DNA from: Gimesia alba
GTDB lineage: Bacteria; Planctomycetota; Planctomycetia; Planctomycetales; Planctomycetaceae
Direction of reading: 5' to 3'
DNA length: 64,000 nt
Assembly (NCBI RefSeq): GCF_007744675.1
Contig: NZ_CP036269.1
Span: 6,747,046-6,811,045, forward strand
The position numbers and the translations under genes were made by a program. The notes under the pieces are model-generated. The model was not told the DNA's origin. It did no database searches and saw only the letters and a list, made by a program, of their open reading frames with translations. Positions 23,025-49,991 of the stretch are shown in pieces; the stretch's first letter is position 1, and each line of letters opens with the position of its first letter.

Positions 23025-23098
<74 letters not shown>

Positions 23099-23135
23099 CT
23101 TCTTATCTCACGCTGAGAAAACCACTTACAACTAC

Positions 23136-23166
23136 AAGGCCTTCGTCACCCCGGCGAAGGCCTTTT
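23136..23166 (+). terminator. Terminator downstream of tRNA-Arg
   Basis: AAGGCCTTCG pairs perfectly with CGAAGGCCTT around TCACCCCGG and is followed by TT. It lies 37 bases after the tRNA. Confidence 0.75.
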
Positions 23167-23444
23167 GCATTCCCCCCACTTATCCCCCCACTAATGGGAA
23201 GTTTCAATTGTCAGGTATTTTCAGATTTGAGTTTGATTTGTTAAGCGATCAAATTTTGGTTTGCTGATTGAAAAACATAATAGTAATCAAACGTAGCTTG
23301 ATTCGCTCATTTCTCTGTGCACAATCAACTTTTATCTCTACTTCAAGCCCGGGTATCAAATTTACAGATGCAGATTGAACTTGTATGATTATGTCTACTA
23401 ATTTTTCAGTTATGGTTTTATGAAGAAACAAGGTGGCTGTGATC
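23167..23444. other. Junction between tRNA and the accessory region
   Basis: About 280 bases. The left part has C-rich tracts (CCCCCCAC); from about 23200 the sequence turns A+T-rich. It must hold the promoter of the GTPase operon. No coding sequence was recognised. Confidence 0.4.
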
Positions 23445-24773
23445 ATGGTAAATTTTTTGCATTTGTCAGATATCCATTTTCGAGAATACAGCAATGATAA
23501 TTTTGATACTGATGGCGATCTCCGAAATGAAATTGAATTGGATGCAAAAAGGTTTGCAGAAACCCACTTTGTCCCTGACGCGATTCTAGTCAGCGGTGAT
23601 ATTGCATTTAGCGGTCAAGAAGATGAATACTCCATTGCGAAAGACTGGCTTAGTAATTTAGCTAGTCTTGTAAAGTGCGAGGAAACATCTGTCTGGTGTG
23701 TGCCTGGAAATCATGATGTTGACCAAAGCGTTATTAAGAAAAGTAAGGTTCTAGAAAGCACACAGGCTGAAGTTCGCAATGTTGCCAACACTCAATCAAA
23801 TGAATTAGACAGCTATCTGAGATCATTGATAACAGATGAGTTGGCAACCGAATTCTTGTTTAAACCGATAGAACAGTACAATAAATTTGCAGCTACATTT
23901 GGTTGTGAAATTCTACCTGAGAAACAGGTGTGGCAGGAAAAGTTTATACTTGACGATGGTTCAGAGTTAAGGCTGAACGGTTTGATGTCTACTCTCTGTT
24001 CTAACCATCTTGATAATGAAAAAGGATTTATAGTAGTCGGAGAATATCAAATTCCAGAGAGAGAAGATGGAGTAGTAGACGTGATTATGTGCCACCATCC
24101 TCATGATTGGATTCGGTCTTCGACTGGTTTTTTTAATAAAGCAAATTCCAGGGCACATTTACAGCTCTTCGGGCATAAGCATATTCAATCAATGGACAGA
24201 ATGAATGACTCATTACATCTAGTGGCAGGTGCAGTTCATCCCGACAAACGAGAGTCCAATTGGGTGCCTCGATATAACTGGATTTCGATTTCAATAGAAG
24301 TAGATTCTAGTAGAAAATTAAAAATCCGTGTTTATCCGAGAATTTGGTCAGAAGATAAAACACAATTTCAGACGGACCACAACAGATGTGAAGGAAGAGA
24401 ATTCCTAGATTATGTTTTCGAATTGCCAATGTGGGAACGTCAATTAAGTGAAAATATTGTTGTAGATGTATCTGGAAATCAAGCTAATGATGAAAATGGA
24501 ATGAGCACATCAATTGACCATGTACCTGAGGGTAAGGCTATGGACCCAGCTCGAACTCTAGCATATCGTTTTTTTGGCCTTTCGCATACACAACGGATTG
24601 AAATAGCGATTCGGCTAAAACTTCTGAATGATACTGATGAAGGTATTGAAGACCATGAATTATATAACCGAATTTTTGATCGGGCGAAAACTGGTGATGT
24701 ATTAAGCCAACTATGGGATGCTATCGAACATGAATATTCGGACGGTAAGCATGATCAAAATCCATTTGATTAA
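23445..24773 (+). CDS. Calcineurin-like metallophosphoesterase of the GTPase defence operon
   Basis: 442 residues from ATG 23445 (GTG 23433 is possible). Metal-binding motifs are in the normal order: HLSDIHF (9-12), VSGDIAF, VPGNHDVD, CHHPHDW and FGHKHIQ. All ligands for a two-metal phosphoesterase are present, so it probably cleaves phosphodiester or phosphomonoester bonds. After the catalytic domain comes a separate helical tail of about 75 residues (LAYRFFGLSHTQRIEIAIRL ... LSQLWDAIE) that looks like a protein-interaction adaptor. It is the first gene of a five-gene operon, nine bases before the next. It is probably the effector or a nucleotide-signal eraser (inference). Confidence 0.85.
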   Translation: MVNFLHLSDIHFREYSNDNFDTDGDLRNEIELDAKRFAETHFVPDAILVSGDIAFSGQEDEYSIAKDWLSNLASLVKCEETSVWCVPGNHDVDQSVIKKSKVLESTQAEVRNVANTQSNELDSYLRSLITDELATEFLFKPIEQYNKFAATFGCEILPEKQVWQEKFILDDGSELRLNGLMSTLCSNHLDNEKGFIVVGEYQIPEREDGVVDVIMCHHPHDWIRSSTGFFNKANSRAHLQLFGHKHIQSMDRMNDSLHLVAGAVHPDKRESNWVPRYNWISISIEVDSSRKLKIRVYPRIWSEDKTQFQTDHNRCEGREFLDYVFELPMWERQLSENIVVDVSGNQANDENGMSTSIDHVPEGKAMDPARTLAYRFFGLSHTQRIEIAIRLKLLNDTDEGIEDHELYNRIFDRAKTGDVLSQLWDAIEHEYSDGKHDQNPFD

Positions 24774-24782
24774 CACAAAACA

Positions 24783-25913
24783 TTGAGGAGCATAATGGAT
24801 ATACACTTTGCAGATTGGTTGCGTCTAGCAGATATTGAAGATTGCCAAGGAGATGGCGATAGGCTTCAACTACGTTGGTCAGGATTAGAAAATAGCATTC
24901 AAGATATCTCGTCAGATCAAATATTAAACTTAGCATTGCTTTTTTATAGACTGCCGATAGATGATGAAGTTGCAGATGAGTTTGCTGGTTTCTTTAAAGA
25001 TGAAGATAATACATTTCCAATGATTGATAATCGGCTTTATCTTTCATGTCTAGCTGGAGCAGCTCTTGGAGAAGTGATTCAAAGTCAACCTGAGACTACC
25101 GAAGCACGATTGTCTGCACTAGCAGTAATATGCCCAAATTGTATGGGCAAGAATAATATTTCTGCTATTGAAGAGATCGTTAGGCGCTCTTGGAATGCTC
25201 TTCACTCTGAAAGTGCATCGCTGCGTGATCTGACGAAACACTCACTTAATCGTTCAAGCGTTCCAAACATCTCAACTAGCTTAAATTCAATTAAAGAGAA
25301 TTTTGAAGTACAGACGCAGTTACCACAGGCTTACGCACCACTTGACAAGATACTCAATGGTCTTGCTAAGTCGATCAAGCAAACTAATCAAAATAATAAA
25401 TACTTAAATTCTCAGTTAGAGTTATTTAGAGAAGAATCAGATATCTTATGGTGGCTGACCACAGCAGTCAGTAAAAAACTTTCTGTAGTATTTGAGGATC
25501 TTAACTGGCCAGCGACTACAGTTATACTCGGGGTCGAGCTAGCAGAAATGGTAAGAAGGTTTCCCGGCCCGCTTTCCTATAAAGAGCTGTTGGCTAGAGC
25601 GATCCAGCTTTCAGGAAAAGAAGAAAATGAAATGATTAAGATTTCGTCCGTAGTGTCAAAATTGGAAAAAGAATTTTCTTCAGAATTAGAGTCTCTCTAC
25701 TCAGAAAATCCAGCTTTATCTTTATGTCCGTTGATCAAGTCATTGGTTAGGTCAAGAGGAGCTAAGAGGCAAGCAGAGTGGTTGCAACCCTTGAAACAGG
25801 AGTTTTCAATTTCTAACACTACTCAATTTAATTGCGTGGATTTTGCAATGCAGATATATTTAGAGACACTTTTGCTTCGTCAATTTAATGCAATTCAAAT
25901 CGAGGGGGAATAG
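24783..25913 (+). CDS. GTPase-associated helical-domain (GASH-like) protein
   Basis: 376 residues, almost entirely alpha-helical, with no enzymatic motif. The N-terminus HFADWLRLADIE ... DRLQLRW and the C-terminal WWLTTAVSKKLSV followed by AVILGVELAEMV-type helices match what I recall of the GTPase-associated system helical domain, a scaffold found next to double-GTPase genes. The start could be ATG 24783 or the internal ATG 24795 (MDIHFADW), which has GAGGAG just upstream and is more likely. Its position between the phosphoesterase and the GTPases suggests it connects them. The family assignment is from memory and context. Confidence 0.65.
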   Translation: MRSIMDIHFADWLRLADIEDCQGDGDRLQLRWSGLENSIQDISSDQILNLALLFYRLPIDDEVADEFAGFFKDEDNTFPMIDNRLYLSCLAGAALGEVIQSQPETTEARLSALAVICPNCMGKNNISAIEEIVRRSWNALHSESASLRDLTKHSLNRSSVPNISTSLNSIKENFEVQTQLPQAYAPLDKILNGLAKSIKQTNQNNKYLNSQLELFREESDILWWLTTAVSKKLSVVFEDLNWPATTVILGVELAEMVRRFPGPLSYKELLARAIQLSGKEENEMIKISSVVSKLEKEFSSELESLYSENPALSLCPLIKSLVRSRGAKRQAEWLQPLKQEFSISNTTQFNCVDFAMQIYLETLLLRQFNAIQIEGE

Positions 25914-25915
25914 TT

Positions 25916-26866
25916 TTGTCTAAGGAGTTAGAGGAAACGCAAGAGGTTGATATAGACGATGGAGTAGAAGCCGAAGATGATTCGTTAATTGATTTTTATA
26001 GTGGAGATGCACTTTCAGTTGAAGAAAGTCGGTCAATAAGTATGTCGTCCCGCGTTCAGTTGATTCTTTTGGCAGGGGCTGTGGATTGTGGAAAATCTTC
26101 TCTAATTGCAAGTTTATTCCATTGCTTTCAAAATGGCCCGCTAGGGGGGTATTTATTCGCCGGTTCACGAACACTAGTTGGATTTGAACGAAGGTGTCAC
26201 AAAGCTCGTGTCGCATCAAATCGAGATACACCCACAATGGACCGAACTAGCTTTGGTGAAAAAAGGAAGCTTCTGCATCTCAAAGTTGCCCAAAAATCTA
26301 ATCCAAGTACACCAAAACATTTGTTTTTCGCTGATGTTTCAGGAGAATCTTTTGAAGATGCAATCAATTCTGTAGATGATTGCGCACAGGTACCGTTGCT
26401 CCGTCGCTCAGATCATTTTGTTTTATTGGTTGATGGTAGCAAAATGATTGATTTGGCATTTCGTCAAAATGCAAAGAAAGAAGCATTATTGTTGCTTCAA
26501 AGTTGTATTGAATCGAATCGGTTGGGAGAACGTTCGCTGGTAGATGTTATATTCTCTAAGTATGATTTATTTGTGCATGATGATACTGCCTTAAATTTTA
26601 TTGAATCAATCAAATCAGCAATAAAAGGCCGATTTGGAGATTTATTGGGGCGAATTAGATTTAGCAACATTGCAGCTATTCCGGAAACTGGGACTAAAGC
26701 GATTAAGCTCGGATACGGTTTGAATGAAATTTTTCCATCTTGGGTAGAAGATAACCCAGGTTCATACTTTCCAATAGAGCTCTATAATGAAAATCTAGAG
26801 GGGTGTTGTGAATTCGACTATTTTGGTCGGAACTATGCTAGACGAGAAAGCGGAATTAATGAATGA
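25916..26866 (+). CDS. Double-GTPase-type P-loop GTPase (DO-GTPase2-like)
   Basis: 316 residues from TTG 25916, preceded by a GAGGGGGAA Shine-Dalgarno. After an acidic N-terminus (1-40), the GTPase core shows Walker A GAVDCGKSS (54-62), a DVSGE switch II motif (140-144) in place of the usual DxxGQ, and a SKYD specificity motif (214-217) in the place of NKxD. The insert between G1 and G3 holds a conserved-looking TSFGEKRKLLHLKV. Its signature matches TRAFAC-type GTPases that occur in pairs in predicted bacterial immune operons. It overlaps the next gene, implying coupled translation and probably a heteromeric GTPase pair. Confidence 0.75.
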   Translation: MSKELEETQEVDIDDGVEAEDDSLIDFYSGDALSVEESRSISMSSRVQLILLAGAVDCGKSSLIASLFHCFQNGPLGGYLFAGSRTLVGFERRCHKARVASNRDTPTMDRTSFGEKRKLLHLKVAQKSNPSTPKHLFFADVSGESFEDAINSVDDCAQVPLLRRSDHFVLLVDGSKMIDLAFRQNAKKEALLLLQSCIESNRLGERSLVDVIFSKYDLFVHDDTALNFIESIKSAIKGRFGDLLGRIRFSNIAAIPETGTKAIKLGYGLNEIFPSWVEDNPGSYFPIELYNENLEGCCEFDYFGRNYARRESGINE

Positions 26867-27722
26867 GAGACATTCACAACAATTTCTAATTGGGCTTCCA
26901 GAATCTGGTAAAACGACTTTTTTGGCAGCCTTATGGCATGTGCTGTTTGAAAAAGATGTAGACGGTAGTTTGCAGTTTGCCAATCTCACTGGAGATAAAA
27001 CATATCTAAATAATATTTGCAAAGAATGGGTAGGAGTACAGCGTCTTGAACGCACCAAGTTGGGTATGGAATCGACTGCATTGATTCAGCTACGAGACCC
27101 AAAGACAGAGCTTTTGACTGATATTTCAATACCTGACTTGTCCGGCGAATCATTTGAGCAACAATGGACAGAAAGATATGCCGAAAAAGGATATTCTGAG
27201 ATTATTGACCAATCTGAAGGAGGTCTTTTATTCATACATCCTGATATCCGTGAAAGTGAATTGATAACAAACGCATCGCAACTAGCGAATAGAATCAAAT
27301 CACCTGAGTCCAATGTTGAAGATAATCATAGTAATGAGCCAATAGAATGGGATCCTCATAAATCGCCCACCCAAGTTCAACTTGTTGAATTATTGCAGTT
27401 CATATCTGTTTTAAATAGACGAAGCTCGATTCGATTAGCTGTAATAATTTCTGCGTGGGACCGGGTACACGAAAATCAATCCGATCCTGATAAGTGGTTA
27501 GGTAAACGAGCCCCTTTATTAATGCAATTTCTCCAAGCAAATTCTGAAAAATTCGAGTGTAAATGCTTTGGCGTTAGCGCTCAGGGGGGAGATATAGAAA
27601 AAAACAAGGATGAACTACAATCAATCGAGTCACCCTCGCAACGCATTGAATTGATATCAACAGGGCACAAAAAAACAAATGATATCACATTACCTTTGCG
27701 ATGGACGATTCGATGGGATTAA
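26808..27722 (+). CDS. Second double-GTPase-type P-loop GTPase (DO-GTPase1-like)
   Basis: 304 residues if it starts at GTG 26808 (GAGGGG upstream); ATG 26859, overlapping the previous stop by eight bases, is an equally good start and begins only nine residues before Walker A. Walker A is GLPESGKTT, followed by FLAALWHVL. Switch II is PDLSGESF, sharing the DxSGE variant with the preceding GTPase. The base-specificity motif is SAWDRV, lacking the usual Lys, so nucleotide preference may differ. It is unlike the previous protein in sequence outside these motifs. The two GTPases probably act as a pair. Confidence 0.75.
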   Translation: MNSTILVGTMLDEKAELMNERHSQQFLIGLPESGKTTFLAALWHVLFEKDVDGSLQFANLTGDKTYLNNICKEWVGVQRLERTKLGMESTALIQLRDPKTELLTDISIPDLSGESFEQQWTERYAEKGYSEIIDQSEGGLLFIHPDIRESELITNASQLANRIKSPESNVEDNHSNEPIEWDPHKSPTQVQLVELLQFISVLNRRSSIRLAVIISAWDRVHENQSDPDKWLGKRAPLLMQFLQANSEKFECKCFGVSAQGGDIEKNKDELQSIESPSQRIELISTGHKKTNDITLPLRWTIRWD

Positions 27723-29779
27723 GCATAAGAGGCAGCGAAATAATTGCTGACCAAGCTGTGCATGGTTACTCCAATGGGCATCGCCTACTTGCTGCATCCA
27801 AATCTTTTGGAAAGCAGGTTGAACGACAAATGAGAATGTTGAGCGACTTGTCTGGTCCGACTATTAGTGAAGGTTTTGAAAAATACTGGACTGCTTACCC
27901 CCTCATACAAAATAAATATTTTGCAATTGCAAAAACATGGATAGCAACAGAATTCTCACGTCCAGGGTGTGTATGGACCCATACGCTCATTTTTCGATAT
28001 ACAGACTTACTGAAATTGAATTCCATCGAAGATCTCCTCGATGCTTTTATTCATCCAGAGTCCATGGGTTTAGAGCGTTATGAAGAGCCAGTTTCTATTA
28101 GAAGTAGCCACAATAACATTCGTTCTCAACATTTATCTTCCATCTCATTTCAAATTGCAGAAGATTTTTATAAAACTGAGGATCCAGTTTGTGTTCGAGT
28201 AAAAAACTCGGAGCTCTTTGAGAGAGACGTATTTGAACTATGGTTATTTCACGCAAGACTTACTGCTAAATTGTTTTCTTTTTGTACCGGTGCGATCAGA
28301 TTACGTCAAATTGAAAATCAATATCTTGATGTTCAATTATCAACATCAGAGGGTATAAGAGATGCAATACGATCACATTCTCAAGTTAAAATTTGTGATA
28401 TTTCTACATCCCTTACCACTGATAAAAAGGAGAAGAAGGAGGAGGAAGGCTTTGCCTTTGTGTCTAAATATTTAAGTTCTGACTCAAGAGCAGAAATTGG
28501 TCAATTATATTCTGTTGCGAAAAATATTGCAGATGCGGAGTCTGGAGGAATTCCTATCTCAAATGTTGCTGAAAAGATTGCATCTAATTGGCCCAGTTCG
28601 AAAGAAGCACAAGGTATAAAGACAAGCGTATTTGGATCATCAGAAGTCCGAGAGTATTTTCTCAAAAACGACGAACTAGTAATTGTTGAATCAATAATTT
28701 CTCCCAAGGTCAGCCATGCATTTGATTTAAAAGAACTAAAAGTCGCAAATACATTAAAAGGAGCTAGTGTTACAAGAAGTCAAGAAGTATGCCGACTTCT
28801 ATCGCGAGGAATTACAAAGAACAAGAAGGACTTTGTTTCCGTAGCATTAGATACTATTGTTTTATTGAGAGAACGAGTAAGCACTGATATTCTGGAAAAA
28901 CTGTCTGAGAATGAGATATGCCAATTAATTAAACTGCGTCCCGATTACCTAATATGTAAAAAAGTCTGGGAATTGGCAGATAGACAAAAGCTCAACAAAA
29001 TTCTAGAAACTGCAAATATCGAAGCAACTTGGGTGAATAGCTTAATTGAAACTACTATTGAAATTTCAGAGTTCGAAGCGATATCTCATATAATAAGTAC
29101 CAATCCTGAATTGGGTATCCGAGCAATCCTAGATAAGGGTAATCAGGATACAAGGCTGGCTAGTCGGATAATGTCGATGCTTAGTAGTCGATCTGATCTG
29201 GTTTGCGAGTGGCTCGACAAAGAGAAAAGTATTTCAGTCGAATTTCTCGGTAGCTTATTTTTGAATTTAGATCCAGCTAGTGAGGCATTTCTGCATTGTA
29301 GTTCGTCCTCTTTGGAAAATATCTCAAACTTTGATCGCAATAATAGTAGTGACTTAAACCAGTTCCTTGATGCATTTCTTTTCTCTATTGCGCTCACGCA
29401 TTCTGAGAAAGAATTGTCCTGCATGGTTTCACGACAGTTCCCATCCTTATATTCTTCTGTTTGTAGGTCTAGTCTCGCGAGACAGGCGTGGAGTTTGTTG
29501 GATCGCTTTTTGCCACGTGGCTTTTTTTGGAGCCCAGCAAAAAGATTTCGCATAGGACTCGTGTCTGTATTCATAAATAACGAATGGCCTGTCAATGACT
29601 TTTTACGTGCGATTCCAGATGAACAATTTGTTACTGATGTGTGCGGAATGTGGGGATGGGATGAGAAAGAAATGGAGTTTCTGACGAATGTAGTCAGTTA
29701 TGCATTGGAGAGTGGTCAAGACATCATTTCGCGGAAAATATACAAGAGGTTTCGAAAGTACTCTAAATACTTTATTTGA
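27701..29779 (+). CDS. GTPase-associated protein 1 (GAP1-like)
   Basis: 692 residues from ATG 27701 (ATG 27713 possible), overlapping the GTPase by 22 bases. The N-terminal 150 residues carry the family hallmark QAVHGYSNGHRLLAAS, then LSDLSGPT, WTAYPLIQNKYFAIAKTW and RPGCVWTHTLIF, typical of the GAP1 N-terminal domain. The rest is helical and Leu/Ser/Glu-rich, consistent with the middle and C-terminal GAP1 regions. In the published comparative-genomic picture this protein always accompanies the double GTPases and is thought to control or sense through them. No experimental role is known to me. It is the last gene of the operon. Confidence 0.75.
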   Translation: MDDSMGLSIRGSEIIADQAVHGYSNGHRLLAASKSFGKQVERQMRMLSDLSGPTISEGFEKYWTAYPLIQNKYFAIAKTWIATEFSRPGCVWTHTLIFRYTDLLKLNSIEDLLDAFIHPESMGLERYEEPVSIRSSHNNIRSQHLSSISFQIAEDFYKTEDPVCVRVKNSELFERDVFELWLFHARLTAKLFSFCTGAIRLRQIENQYLDVQLSTSEGIRDAIRSHSQVKICDISTSLTTDKKEKKEEEGFAFVSKYLSSDSRAEIGQLYSVAKNIADAESGGIPISNVAEKIASNWPSSKEAQGIKTSVFGSSEVREYFLKNDELVIVESIISPKVSHAFDLKELKVANTLKGASVTRSQEVCRLLSRGITKNKKDFVSVALDTIVLLRERVSTDILEKLSENEICQLIKLRPDYLICKKVWELADRQKLNKILETANIEATWVNSLIETTIEISEFEAISHIISTNPELGIRAILDKGNQDTRLASRIMSMLSSRSDLVCEWLDKEKSISVEFLGSLFLNLDPASEAFLHCSSSSLENISNFDRNNSSDLNQFLDAFLFSIALTHSEKELSCMVSRQFPSLYSSVCRSSLARQAWSLLDRFLPRGFFWSPAKRFRIGLVSVFINNEWPVNDFLRAIPDEQFVTDVCGMWGWDEKEMEFLTNVVSYALESGQDIISRKIYKRFRKYSKYFI

Positions 29780-30210: not shown

Positions 30211-30341
30211 AAAATAGAGTTGAATGATGAAGTGAAGGCGTCTTTGAGTATTGGTAAGAATGGTGAAGGCAAAGACGAAGTGCTGTGCATGGATTCTAAG
30301 CTACGGTCAAGAGTGCAATTCATTCCTGAATGATTTGTCGC

Positions 30342-30971
30342 TCACATTGAATTTAGTATAAGCTTTAGCTTCTGTATCTCTTCAGGGGAAAGTAGAGACT
30401 TTGTTTCTGTGGGTTCATTTTTGGAGCCCTTACTCTCGAGCTTCTCGTGGATTTCACCTGCAGCAGCCTGAGCCGCCTTAGTCGCACCATAAAACTTCTC
30501 CGTCGTCGAAAAATCTCGGTGCCGTAAAATGACTTTGAGGGTTTCTGCCGAGATTCCGGCGTTGATCAGCCGGTGAGCACAGCCCCGTCTCAGATCGTGG
30601 GCAGTGGCATACTTCAGACGGCGTCCCGTTTCTTCATCTGGCTGCTGAACGATAATCCTGGCTTGCTCTCCAATCTGAGCAATGATTCGGCTGACTCGGT
30701 CCGTTGACAGCCGTTTCTCCGTTCTCTGAGCCTGTCTGCTGGATAGTTTCTCAGCCCGTTTTCTGAGTTTTGCAATAGCATCGGAAGTAATTTCCCCCTG
30801 ATGTTGATTGAATTCGACCTTGCGTTTGATCTTCGCTTTGCCAAGCCAGTTTCGAATGGTGGTATCAGAAACCCCACAGGCTCGGCCGATGGCAGTATTG
30901 CTGTACTGTTCTGCCAGCCTGGCAAGATCCCGGTTAGTTGGTCTGAACCATTCACTATGAGTTTCGATCTA
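30342..30971 (-). pseudogene. 5'-truncated tyrosine integrase (C-terminal fragment)
   Basis: Reading the minus strand, the frame is open to a TGA at 30342-30344 and encodes about 207 residues closely matching the last 205 residues of the intact integrase at 48360-49991 (WFRPTNRDLARLAEQ, HDLRRGCAHRL, LRHRDFSTTEKFYG, ending EEIQKLKLILNSM). Base identity to that gene is visibly high through this block and stops abruptly at about 30971. No in-frame start codon remains, and the first 340 residues, including the catalytic Arg of box I, are gone. It is a remnant of a related element. Confidence 0.9.
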
Positions 30972-31454
30972 ACACTTCAGGAGTCATTCTGATCATATTT
31001 TTCCATTTTGCTATGAAATCGCTAATACGTCTGTCTTTCAAACATACACACCGAGTCCGCGAATAAGGGCTGTATAGATTACTGCCTGGCATTCATCGAG
31101 TTTAGCGAACTAATTCGAGTCCAAACGACGAGAGGTGTTTCGGATGACTTTCGCCGCTGATCAATCGCGGCTACATCTTGCTGAAATGAATTGACAATTA
31201 TATGTGGCCACCCTTCACTAATTACTCATTTCGAAAACAGTCTGAGTGCGATTCACCTAATGATTTGCATCACAAGTCTTCTTCCACGAGTTGTTTGTTG
31301 TCAAGAATCAGATCGGTCCGACAATTAAATTGTGTCATGACGCCACAAAAGGAACGCTCTTGTGAGACCTGTTGTCACAACTAACTGTTTTCGACGCATT
31401 TTGTTGACAGTTTCACCCTATAACCTACTCTTCCTATACACTCGTCTGACTGAC
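30972..31454. other. About 480 bases of non-coding or decayed DNA
   Basis: It lies between the integrase remnant and the IS element. I found no ORF with protein-like composition and no clear repeat. The promoter for the GGDEF-EAL gene may originally have lain here before the IS insertion. Confidence 0.35.
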
Positions 31455-31538
31455 TAGAGGTTGTCTCATAACGTCAAAAAAAGTGAACGGTTTGGCGCGT
31501 CTTTTGCATGAAGTGTTCTCCTGAAAGGAGAATTTCTT

Positions 31539-31985
31539 ATGTATATGACGCTGGTCTGGTGGCCCAAACGAAAACGGGTTTCCACAAAAACAGCGTCCAG
31601 GACGGAACGCCCGGTCGTTTTGACCGATAAACAATGGTCTTTAGTCGCAAAACTGTTTCCCTGGACTCCCCCTTCCAAAAAGGGAGGACGTCCAAAAGCC
31701 CATCCACGAGATTGCCTGGAAGGCATTCTCTGGATTTTGGTGACAGGAGCACGATGGAAAGATTTACCAAGAGAGTATCCCTCAAAAGCGACGTGCCATC
31801 GACGTTTCCAGCAATGGACGATCGAAGGGCGGCTCTTATCTGCCTGGCAAATCATCTTGGAACGAATGGATGATGCTGGCCAGATTGATTTCTCGGAAAC
31901 CTTTGCTGATGGCACTTTTGCCTCGGCAAAAAAAGGGGTAGAAGAGTTGGCCCGACTCGTCGTGGCAAAGGCACAAAGGTCATGA
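31539..31985 (+). CDS. IS5-family transposase, first frame (orfA)
   Basis: 148 residues if read to its own stop. The N-terminal half, LTDKQWSLVAKLFPW ... GGRPKAHPRDCLEGILWIL ... GARWKDLP, is the DUF4096-type transposase N-terminus, followed by WTIEGRLLSAWQIIL and the first catalytic Asp in TFADGTFASAKKG. At the run of seven A (31928-31934), slipping back one base would continue as RGRRVGPTRRGKGTK into the second frame, giving the complete DDE enzyme. The orfA product alone may act as a regulator. Confidence 0.85.
   Translation: MYMTLVWWPKRKRVSTKTASRTERPVVLTDKQWSLVAKLFPWTPPSKKGGRPKAHPRDCLEGILWILVTGARWKDLPREYPSKATCHRRFQQWTIEGRLLSAWQIILERMDDAGQIDFSETFADGTFASAKKGVEELARLVVAKAQRS
31928..31934 (+). 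promoter_or_regulatory. Slippery A7 site for programmed -1 frameshift
   Basis: AAAAAAA followed by GGGG. Reading GCA AAA AAA and slipping one base gives AGG GGT AGA, which leads in frame into the second transposase frame with the conserved RRGKGTKVM motif. The sequence is a classic A-AAA-AAG-type signal. Confidence 0.75.
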
Positions 31986-32383
31986 TTTTTGTCGATCGTC
32001 ACGGGACACCTGTGGCGATCGACACAGAATCGGCCCGTCGTAGCGAAGTCAAGCTGATCGAACCGCTGCTTGAAAAAATCACATTGCAAAATCGACAACC
32101 CGAGCGACTTGTTTATGACAAAGCCGCCGATTCGGACTCGTTGCGCAAACGGCTGATGGAAAAGAATATCGATCTGATCTGCCCGCATCGAAAATCGAGA
32201 GTCAAACCGCCGACGCAAGATGGTCGAAAGCTTCCACGCTTCAAACGACGTTGGATTGTGGAACGCAGTATTGCCTGGCTCCACAACTATCGTCGCATTG
32301 TCACGCGCTGGGAATATCACGATTACCTCTACGAAAGCTTTGTAATTCTTGGGTGTTTATTTACACTATTAAAAAGGTTTTGA
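31982..32383 (+). CDS. IS5-family transposase, second frame (orfB)
   Basis: 133 residues from ATG 31982, overlapping orfA's stop (ATGA), though the natural product is probably the frameshifted fusion. It holds the second Asp (LVYDKAADSDSLRKRL), then DLICPHRKSR and the C-terminal RWIVERSIAWLHNYRRIVTRWE block with the catalytic Glu of the DDE triad. The end LGCLFTLLKRF is complete. Confidence 0.85.
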   Translation: MIFVDRHGTPVAIDTESARRSEVKLIEPLLEKITLQNRQPERLVYDKAADSDSLRKRLMEKNIDLICPHRKSRVKPPTQDGRKLPRFKRRWIVERSIAWLHNYRRIVTRWEYHDYLYESFVILGCLFTLLKRF

Positions 32384-32415
32384 GATGCCCTCTAGTTTCA
32401 AATGTGAGAGTACAA

Positions 32416-48359: not shown

Positions 48360-49991
48360 TCAAATTGAATTAAGAATGATCTTGAGCTTTTGGATCTCTT
48401 CAGCAGAAAGCAGAGACATTGATTCTGCGGGCTCATTATTAGAGTTCTTATTTTCCAATTTCTCACGAACCTCAGAAGCAGCAGCCTGGGCAGCTTTGGT
48501 CGCACCATAAAACTTCTCAGTCGTTGAAAAATCTCGGTGCCGTAAAATGACTTTGAGTGTTTCAGCAGAGATCCCGGCGTTGATCAGCCGGTGAGCACAA
48601 CCCCGTCTCAGGTCATGGGCAGTGGCATACTTCAGACGGCGTCCCGTTTCTTCATCTGGCTGCTGAACGATAATCCGGGCCTGCTCTCCAATCTGAGCAA
48701 TGATTCGGCTGACTCGGTCTGTTGACAGTCGTTTCTCCGCTCTCTGTGCCTGCCTGCTGGATTGTTTCTCAGCTCGTTTTCTGAGTTTCGCAATGGAATT
48801 GGGAGCGATTTCCCCCTGATGCTGATTGAATTCGATCTTGCGTTTGATTTTCGCTTTACCGAGCCAGTTCCGGATGGTGGTATCAGAAACCCCGCAGGCT
48901 CGGCCGATGGCAGTATTGCTGTACTGTTCTGCCAGCCTGGCGAGATCCCGGTTAGTTGGTCTGAACCATTGACCGTCTGCTTCGATCTGATATTCCATCG
49001 GCTGAGGATTTACCACCCAGCCCCGTCGCTCTTTTTCAGGAACCTGTTCGAGCAAATCTTGCAGACCTGGCAGCATCGGAATTTCCTGGTTTTTGCGGTT
49101 CTTCTGTGTTGAGGGAATCACGATTGTGGGATGCAAATCCTGACGGTCCGGCCAGACGGGGTGTAACTTTCGTTCATCATCCCAGGAAAAGTTCATCACA
49201 TCACTGATGCGAAAGGCACTTTCCCAAAGTATCTGTAAAACGAATTTCCAGGAATCTGCCGGTTGCTTACCTACGACTTCAGGAGTGACCTCTAGCATTT
49301 TTTCAAATTCTTCACTGCTAACCGGCCGCCCTTTCATCACATCATCCACACTCAGTTTGGTGAGAGGAGGGATCTTCCGGATCCAGTCGTGACGATAGCA
49401 GTACCGCACGAATGCCATAATTGCCCCCATCGAAGAGTTGACCGTCGTCGGAGCCCGGTAATCCTGCCGGCTTTCTTCACCAGCGAGCAGCCGATCCTGT
49501 AAATACTCCAACGCCGTCAGAGTGGTGTATTCTTCGATGTTTCCATTCTCCGGAAGTTCCTGCTCCTTCCGCTGATTTTCCAGGATCCGGCCAGCTATTC
49601 CGATTCGCGACATGGAATTATCTAATGATTTATTCCGGAAACGCTTTTTGCAGTGTTCATAGTAGTGTTCCACACAATCCTGCCAGTGCATATCGCTCAG
49701 ATATTCAACCTGTTCCTGGGGCTCTGGGGCAGGGGGTGGAACGTGAGTCTGGATTTCCAGAGCTTCCGTGATCACGCCTCCAGACTCAATATAGCGACCG
49801 TTCAATAATCGCTCACGACACTCGCGCATGATCCGGCGGGCTTCACGCCGATCCCGGGTGCCGCAGTTTTTCCGGATCCGTTTCTGATGCAGCGGACAAT
49901 AGAATTTCAGAACATACCCGTTCTTATCTTTCTCTTTGAGAGGCCGATTCGGGTAGAGCTGGACATTTCCGATTTCAGGTTTGCGAGGCAT
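48360..49991 (-). CDS. int: Tyrosine recombinase (integrase) with HTH-like insertion
   Basis: 543 residues. N-terminal arm-binding part (1-100), core-binding SAM-like domain (100-215), catalytic domain with Arg261 (SAFRISDVMNF), a Lys in the strand TQKNRKNQEIP, HDLRRGCAHRL (His459, Arg462), LRHRDF (His485) and nucleophile Tyr495. Between box I and box II there is an extra segment of about 120 residues holding a helix-turn-helix (NRDLARLAEQYSNTAIGRACGVSDTTIRNWL), unusual for integrases. An excisionase-like gene is 20 bases upstream. A second, truncated copy lies at 30342-30971. Confidence 0.92.
   Translation of the reverse strand: MPRKPEIGNVQLYPNRPLKEKDKNGYVLKFYCPLHQKRIRKNCGTRDRREARRIMRECRERLLNGRYIESGGVITEALEIQTHVPPPAPEPQEQVEYLSDMHWQDCVEHYYEHCKKRFRNKSLDNSMSRIGIAGRILENQRKEQELPENGNIEEYTTLTALEYLQDRLLAGEESRQDYRAPTTVNSSMGAIMAFVRYCYRHDWIRKIPPLTKLSVDDVMKGRPVSSEEFEKMLEVTPEVVGKQPADSWKFVLQILWESAFRISDVMNFSWDDERKLHPVWPDRQDLHPTIVIPSTQKNRKNQEIPMLPGLQDLLEQVPEKERRGWVVNPQPMEYQIEADGQWFRPTNRDLARLAEQYSNTAIGRACGVSDTTIRNWLGKAKIKRKIEFNQHQGEIAPNSIAKLRKRAEKQSSRQAQRAEKRLSTDRVSRIIAQIGEQARIIVQQPDEETGRRLKYATAHDLRRGCAHRLINAGISAETLKVILRHRDFSTTEKFYGATKAAQAAASEVREKLENKNSNNEPAESMSLLSAEEIQKLKIILNSI

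Follow-up and report, generated by a model that had tools for sequence, protein, structure and literature searches.

A 6.3-kb operon lies in a 64,000-nucleotide stretch of the Gimesia alba chromosome (RefSeq assembly GCF_007744675.1, contig NZ_CP036269.1, positions 6,747,046 to 6,811,045), hereafter the window. The operon consists of five complete genes, all on the + strand, and all the open reading frames are present at the coordinates given in the original prediction, which was made from the sequence alone. A Pfam profile search matched the five proteins to named families, as had been anticipated, and each of them exceeded the curated cut-off for its family. The features of the operon are as follows.

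23445..24773, + strand: gene of a calcineurin-type metallophosphoesterase-GAAD effector, 442 amino acids (PF00149, 1.6e-10; PF12850; PF19976)
24552..24728, + strand: GAAD domain, effector residues 370-428 (PF19976, 6.3e-14)
24759..24767, + strand: NPF in the C-terminal tail, effector residues 439-441 of 442, 10 residues past the end of the Pfam GAAD match
24795..25913, + strand: GASH, all-helical, 372 amino acids (PF19994, 4.7e-24; AlphaFold2 pLDDT 94.2)
25916..26866, + strand: DO-GTPase2 (DO2), with G1 GAVDCGKSS, G3 DVSGE and G4 SKYD (PF19993, 2.6e-39)
26859..27722, + strand: DO-GTPase1 (DO1), with G1 GLPESGKTT, G3 DLSGE and G4-like SAWD (PF19975, 7.5e-71)
27713..29779, + strand: GAP1 with a GAP1-N1 domain, 688 amino acids (PF20012, 6.2e-30; AlphaFold2 pLDDT 91.5)

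With the likeliest starts, the intergenic gaps are +21, +2, -8, and -10 bases, the last being the overlap by which the GAP1 gene follows the DO1 gene; alternative starts exist for DO1 (GTG at 26808) and for GAP1 (27701, giving 692 amino acids). The genes had been described as overlapping or lying less than 10 bases apart, which holds for three junctions but not for that between the phosphoesterase and GASH, where the distance is 21 bases with the likely ATG at 24795 and 9 only with a TTG start. The second protein had been called all-helical, and its high-confidence AlphaFold2 model agrees.

Judged by their sequences, the five genes can securely be assigned to the GAP1-N1 "GTPase-centric" conflict operons, a kind predicted by Kaur et al. 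(2020; PMC7159879). The defining features are present: paired DO-GTPases with a Walker A motif and a conserved glutamate on the Walker B side, an N1-type GAP1, a GASH, and a variable effector coupled through GAAD. In that paper, the GAP1-N1 system likewise combines a pair of DO-GTPases with GASH and GAP1-N1; the calcineurin-type phosphoesterase is its commonest effector and GAAD a frequent coupling. The window operon differs from the usual form in having no zinc ribbon on either GTPase, and its host probably falls outside the phyla named there as commonest. An N-terminal zinc ribbon is reported in the same source on 60% of DO-GTPases and is thus usual, not defining; no cysteine precedes the P-loop of the window DO2, and among 68 countable related loci at least three cysteines were found in this position in 38 and none or one in 30. 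The operon adds one more example to a kind already predicted, and this identification is firm. PADLOC returned nothing for GASH or GAP1 and at most 18 bits for the GTPases. In searches of open-access full texts, the family names or accessions turned up nowhere but in Kaur et al., apart from passing mentions in PMC11237479 and PMC8998981, and no experiment on these families was found.

To place the operon among its relatives, one genome per species was scanned with a single conserved GAP1 peptide, RPGCVWTH, which yielded 132 relatives, and the best 80 loci were fetched. The order effector-GASH-DO2-DO1-GAP1, with all five slots filled, was kept in 68 of the 80; among these, a GTPase gene is split in three and an extra DO1-like gene lies upstream in one. 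Several of the remaining 12 are on short or cut contigs; GASH was not recognised in two (L057 and L081), and one (L071) has GAP1 only. Given this recurrence of the same order in other genomes, the arrangement is not a product of chance. In a quick tree of the core genes (69 rows, some long branches) the window forms a lone branch with at most 30% identity to any row (the maximum being to L005). A closer relative beyond the tree, on a cut contig of a Planctomycetaceae bin (L004), is 31% identical in GAP1 and 52% in DO1. For GAP1 itself, 110 database relatives were found among 7996 candidates scored, the best full-length ones being 27-28% identical.

While the core genes are constant, the first slot varies. 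The 71 slot proteins, that of the window among them, comprise 53 phosphoesterases, 6 GNAT-like proteins, 5 nucleoside phosphorylases (PNP), 5 SEFIR/TIR proteins, and 2 that are GAAD-only or cut, and the effector class changes four times on the core tree. SEFIR and PNP effectors interchange inside one Bacteroidota-rich core-gene clade, as would be expected if the effector were a plug-in. GNAT-like acetyltransferase-GAAD fusions fill the slot in six loci (L007, L008, L009, L014, L020, and L046), and the L009 protein has 222 database relatives (E up to 0.001), with PF19976 in 109 of the best 120. Three 206-residue GNAT proteins (P0332, P0347, and P0349), 61-62% identical to the effector GNAT, stop before GAAD and may be stand-alone or broken forms. 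The effectors that Kaur et al. (2020; PMC7159879) name for the GAP1-N1 type are calcineurin-type, PNPase, TIR, SLATT, trypsin and caspase, alpha/beta-hydrolase, and DNA-glycosylase; GNAT-like effectors are missing from that list.

The metal-ligand motifs of the window phosphoesterase are complete (D9/H11, G51-D52, G88-N89-H90-D91, H217/H218, and G243-H244-x-H246). When the window protein is aligned with those of related loci, 51 sequences in all, each motif is kept in 50 or 51 of them. Its best database relatives are 50-51% identical. The protein matches the PADLOC candidate-defence model PDC-S60 (9.5e-13), and residues 6-300 match the NCBIfam DS-8 model with 103 bits (9.3e-30), well below that model's whole-protein cut-off of 790. 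DS-8 and DS-9 of DefensePredictor (PMC13092281) have a homologous metallophosphatase domain whose catalytic residues are needed for defence, catalytic mutants of DS-8 having lost phage defence, and they are the nearest experimentally tested relatives found for the effector domain. They differ in their setting: DS-8 consists of one protein, which has a NACHT domain, the partner of DS-9 is a HAD phosphatase, and GTPase, GAP1, and GASH do not occur in the available text of that paper. The phosphoesterase had been proposed as the output of the system, and two observations support this: it occupies the sole slot in which unrelated enzymes are exchanged, and DS-8 and DS-9 depend for phage defence on the catalytic residues of a homologous domain.

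The phosphoesterase is also similar to the solved phosphohydrolases 2dxl and 2zo9 (E ~6e-4 over 90 residues), which would suit a regulatory GTPase module of ordinary physiology, in signalling or nucleotide turnover rather than immunity, and no defence phenotype is known for this kind of operon. The exchange of unrelated enzymes in the effector slot speaks against such a module, as do neighbours that are sometimes mobile or defensive. In a survey of 102 nearest flanking proteins from 61 related loci (open reading frames of 150-700 amino acids), the counts from which stand without a control set, 6 of the 102 were phage integrases, and restriction enzymes, DRT, AbiEii, ToxN, and DrmD proteins appeared as singletons among the 25 of 83 and 25 of 64 families listed.

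The distribution of the operon bears on the same question. Not one of 58 relatives, 16 congeners among them, had a GAP1-N1 match over the cut-off (two more distant ones matched weakly); across the phylum, 6 of 392 genomes did, the host's own included. The operon genes have a GC content of 0.38-0.39 and a third-position GC content (GC3) of 0.28-0.32, against 0.51-0.52 and 0.57 in the two backbone genes just upstream. Within the same region, GC3 is close to that of the backbone in the sensor gene (0.49) and in the intact integrase (0.53), so the operon is unlike even its own island. By composition the operon is foreign and appears horizontally acquired. Absence from all 16 congeners and the low-GC3 foreign DNA are hard to reconcile with ordinary physiology, and we consider that explanation unlikely. 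The original prediction had specified a lack of family matches, or housekeeping genes shared by all relatives far from mobile DNA, as outcomes against it; instead, all five proteins have family matches, and the operon is accessory and lies in foreign-looking DNA near mobile elements. Divergent GAP1-N1 matches over the cut-off (L124, L125, L126, and L127) occur in one family of the phylum, in genomes that have no GAAD, and possibly represent another branch of the system. Weak GAAD-like matches were seen in frames of 1007 and 2014 amino acids in two genomes (L131 and L132) with no GAP1-N1 match.

The window effector ends in HDQNPFD, and effectors often finish with NP[F/Y] a few residues past GAAD. 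Of the 71 effector-slot proteins, 27 have NPF within their final 14 residues, namely all 16 GNAT, PNP, and SEFIR effectors, 11 of 53 phosphoesterases, and neither of the two GAAD-only proteins, compared with 1 of 1172 other six-frame open reading frames of at least 150 amino acids and 0 of 321 core open reading frames or pieces. Among the best 120 of 2533 relatives of the window phosphoesterase, the last 16 residues include NPF in 78 and NP followed by F, Y, W, L, I, or M in 116; the corresponding numbers for the best 120 of 222 GNAT-GAAD relatives are 108 and 110, and the chance expectation from the same proteins is ~0.003 each. Three of the 12 GNAT relatives without NPF are 206-residue proteins that stop before GAAD. 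Thus 42 of 53 phosphoesterases in the wider species sample have no tail, yet the nearest relatives of the window protein carry it. Two clades have no tail, a mainly proteobacterial one of 25 rows and a Firmicutes-rich one of 13 rows, in which the only spirochaete member is the exception. The state of the tail changes seven times on the core tree; the rows are related by descent, so these counts are not independent. The tail may simply travel along with GAAD. The strong point is that it occurs in four unrelated enzyme types, and we propose that it docks the effector to the complex.

The DVSGE and DLSGE motifs that had been noticed in the two GTPases are genuine and conserved. In alignments that include the window (twice among the 75 DO1 proteins, via L001), the glycine and glutamate of DxSGE are kept in 73 of 73 DO2 and 75 of 75 DO1 proteins and the aspartate in 64 and 75, respectively. 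Invariant positions are G59, K60, G143, E144, and D217 in DO2 and G29, K35, P109, D110, G113, and E114 in DO1, the latter numbered from the GTG start. DO1 has SAWD (215-218) where N/TKxD is expected, with each letter in 69-75 of the 75 proteins. The two GTPases are homologous to each other, that is, paralogues (hhalign probability 99.1).

The AlphaFold2 model of GAP1 divides into two parts.

27731..28480, + strand: GAP1 residues 7-256, a longin-like plus an alpha/beta part, aligning with DENN modules and TagF (a structural lead)
28550..29776, + strand: GAP1 residues 280-688, a helical HEAT/ARM-like solenoid (matches middling, arrangement common)

Residues 5-265 of the model align with the longin-DENN regulators DENND1A/B and DENND10 over 220-235 residues at 5.2-5.3 A, and the GTPases of the operon are encoded next to GAP1. 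No DENN chain was among the 17 PDB profile matches of GAP1. The structural match to TagF might instead suggest kinship with the regulators of type VI secretion. In hhalign comparisons, however, the GAP1 N-terminus scored a probability of 0.2 against 25 TagF proteins, no better than unrelated controls. DENN proteins score the same, and TagF_N had no match in the window's own genome, while 34 of 246 genomes searched had one; a link to type VI secretion is highly improbable. A more tentative idea, possible though on balance doubtful, is that GAP1 is a bacterial DENN-type regulator, in which a longin-DENN-like head would load or unload the paired DO-GTPases and the solenoid (or GASH) would read the GAAD-NP[F/Y] tail, one switch thus driving phosphodiesterase, SEFIR/TIR, PNP, and GNAT effectors. 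NPF, GNAT, DENN, and longin do not occur in the available text of Kaur et al. (PMC7159879), and acetyltransferase occurs twice, in connection with vWA systems and in the title or text of a reference. Relative to that text, what goes beyond the published description is, by falling certainty, the NP[F/Y] tail, the GNAT-like effectors, and the DENN-like head of GAP1.

The surroundings of the operon include the following features.

23025..23099, + strand: tRNA-Arg(acg) (ARAGORN)
30341..30970, - strand: tyrosine integrase remnant, 88% identical in DNA to the intact copy at 48360-49991
31453..32396, + strand: insertion sequence with its transposase split over two open reading frames, at least 15 further near-identical copies being present on the chromosome
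48360..49991, - strand: intact tyrosine integrase of the surrounding island, 543 amino acids (PF00589, 2e-13)

The operon had been placed beside a tRNA-Arg, and this gene indeed ends 345 bp upstream. DNA to just beyond the tRNA is kept in the genus, with 91% identity to one congener through base 23187. A 143-bp copy (94%) of the tRNA 3' end and its flank (23057-23199) lies inverted ~69 kb downstream on the same chromosome, and two congeners have copies of 121 and 142 bp in tRNA orientation ~22 and ~38 kb from their tRNA-Arg. The DNA enclosed by these congener repeats had no blastn match to the window island, its integrase included. In one congener island at the same tRNA-Arg (L120, 6858-17768), TIR/ThsB-like genes lie among the subunit genes of a type I restriction-modification system; of 8 of its proteins submitted to PADLOC, 6 were recognised as TIR/ThsB-like or as M, S, or R subunits of type I, against 0 of 2 from the other congener. 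The tRNA-Arg is thus an island site used within the genus. The insertion sequence interrupts a segment whose second copy, 83-95% identical and ~55 kb downstream, has no insertion. For the integrase and several response-regulator and diguanylate-cyclase-like genes between 36657 and 50229, inverted copies with 79-90% identity lie at a distance of 30-50 kb, which suggests that the island was assembled by repeated element fusions and inversion. Given the integrase copies, the insertion sequence, and the duplicated segments, the region is a mosaic.

The operon adjoins integrase remnants, its region is a mosaic with repeats of the tRNA end, and it is laid out as effector plus regulator. All this would also suit an addiction or toxin-type module, in which the phosphoesterase would be the toxin and the GTPase complex its brake, and which would stabilise the island. 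No small antitoxin-like partner was recognised, however, and the effector slot also holds enzymes that are not necessarily toxic alone. To our knowledge, addiction modules are all far smaller than a five-gene switch with two GTPases. We regard an addiction function as quite improbable.

Gene identity, intact catalytic motifs, kept order, a swappable effector slot, foreign composition, and a tRNA site that bears islands in the genus are all shown by the data. It is probable, in our judgement, that the operon is an intact, horizontally acquired GAP1-N1 GTPase-centric conflict system, most likely anti-phage, and works as follows. GAP1 and GASH would form a constant platform, and the two paralogous DO-GTPases would act as a GTP-dependent pair controlled by GAP1 through its N-terminal, possibly DENN-like, module. 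The phosphoesterase would be held to this complex by its C-terminal GAAD and NP[F/Y] tail. Infection, the presumed trigger, would alter the state of the GAP1/GASH/GTPase complex, and the phosphoesterase would then be released or activated, cleaving a nucleotide or other phosphodiester and so stopping phage growth or the infected cell. A switch of two GTPases sensed through GAP1, as in the original prediction, was published as an inference by Kaur et al., and the DENN-like model makes it somewhat more plausible. We infer that the GTPase-switch mechanism and the immune role are likely.

The family was predicted in 2020, and the window copy is complete, compact, and foreign, with its motifs intact. 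The survey offers cheap, concrete handles on the link between switch and effector: a short tail motif, an exchangeable effector slot, and a GTPase regulator fold. DENN GTPase regulators are described as a eukaryotic class (PMC3521125). If the DENN reading is true, this family would represent an immune GTPase switch with an architecture hitherto regarded as eukaryotic, and would tie bacterial immunity to that class of GTPase regulators.
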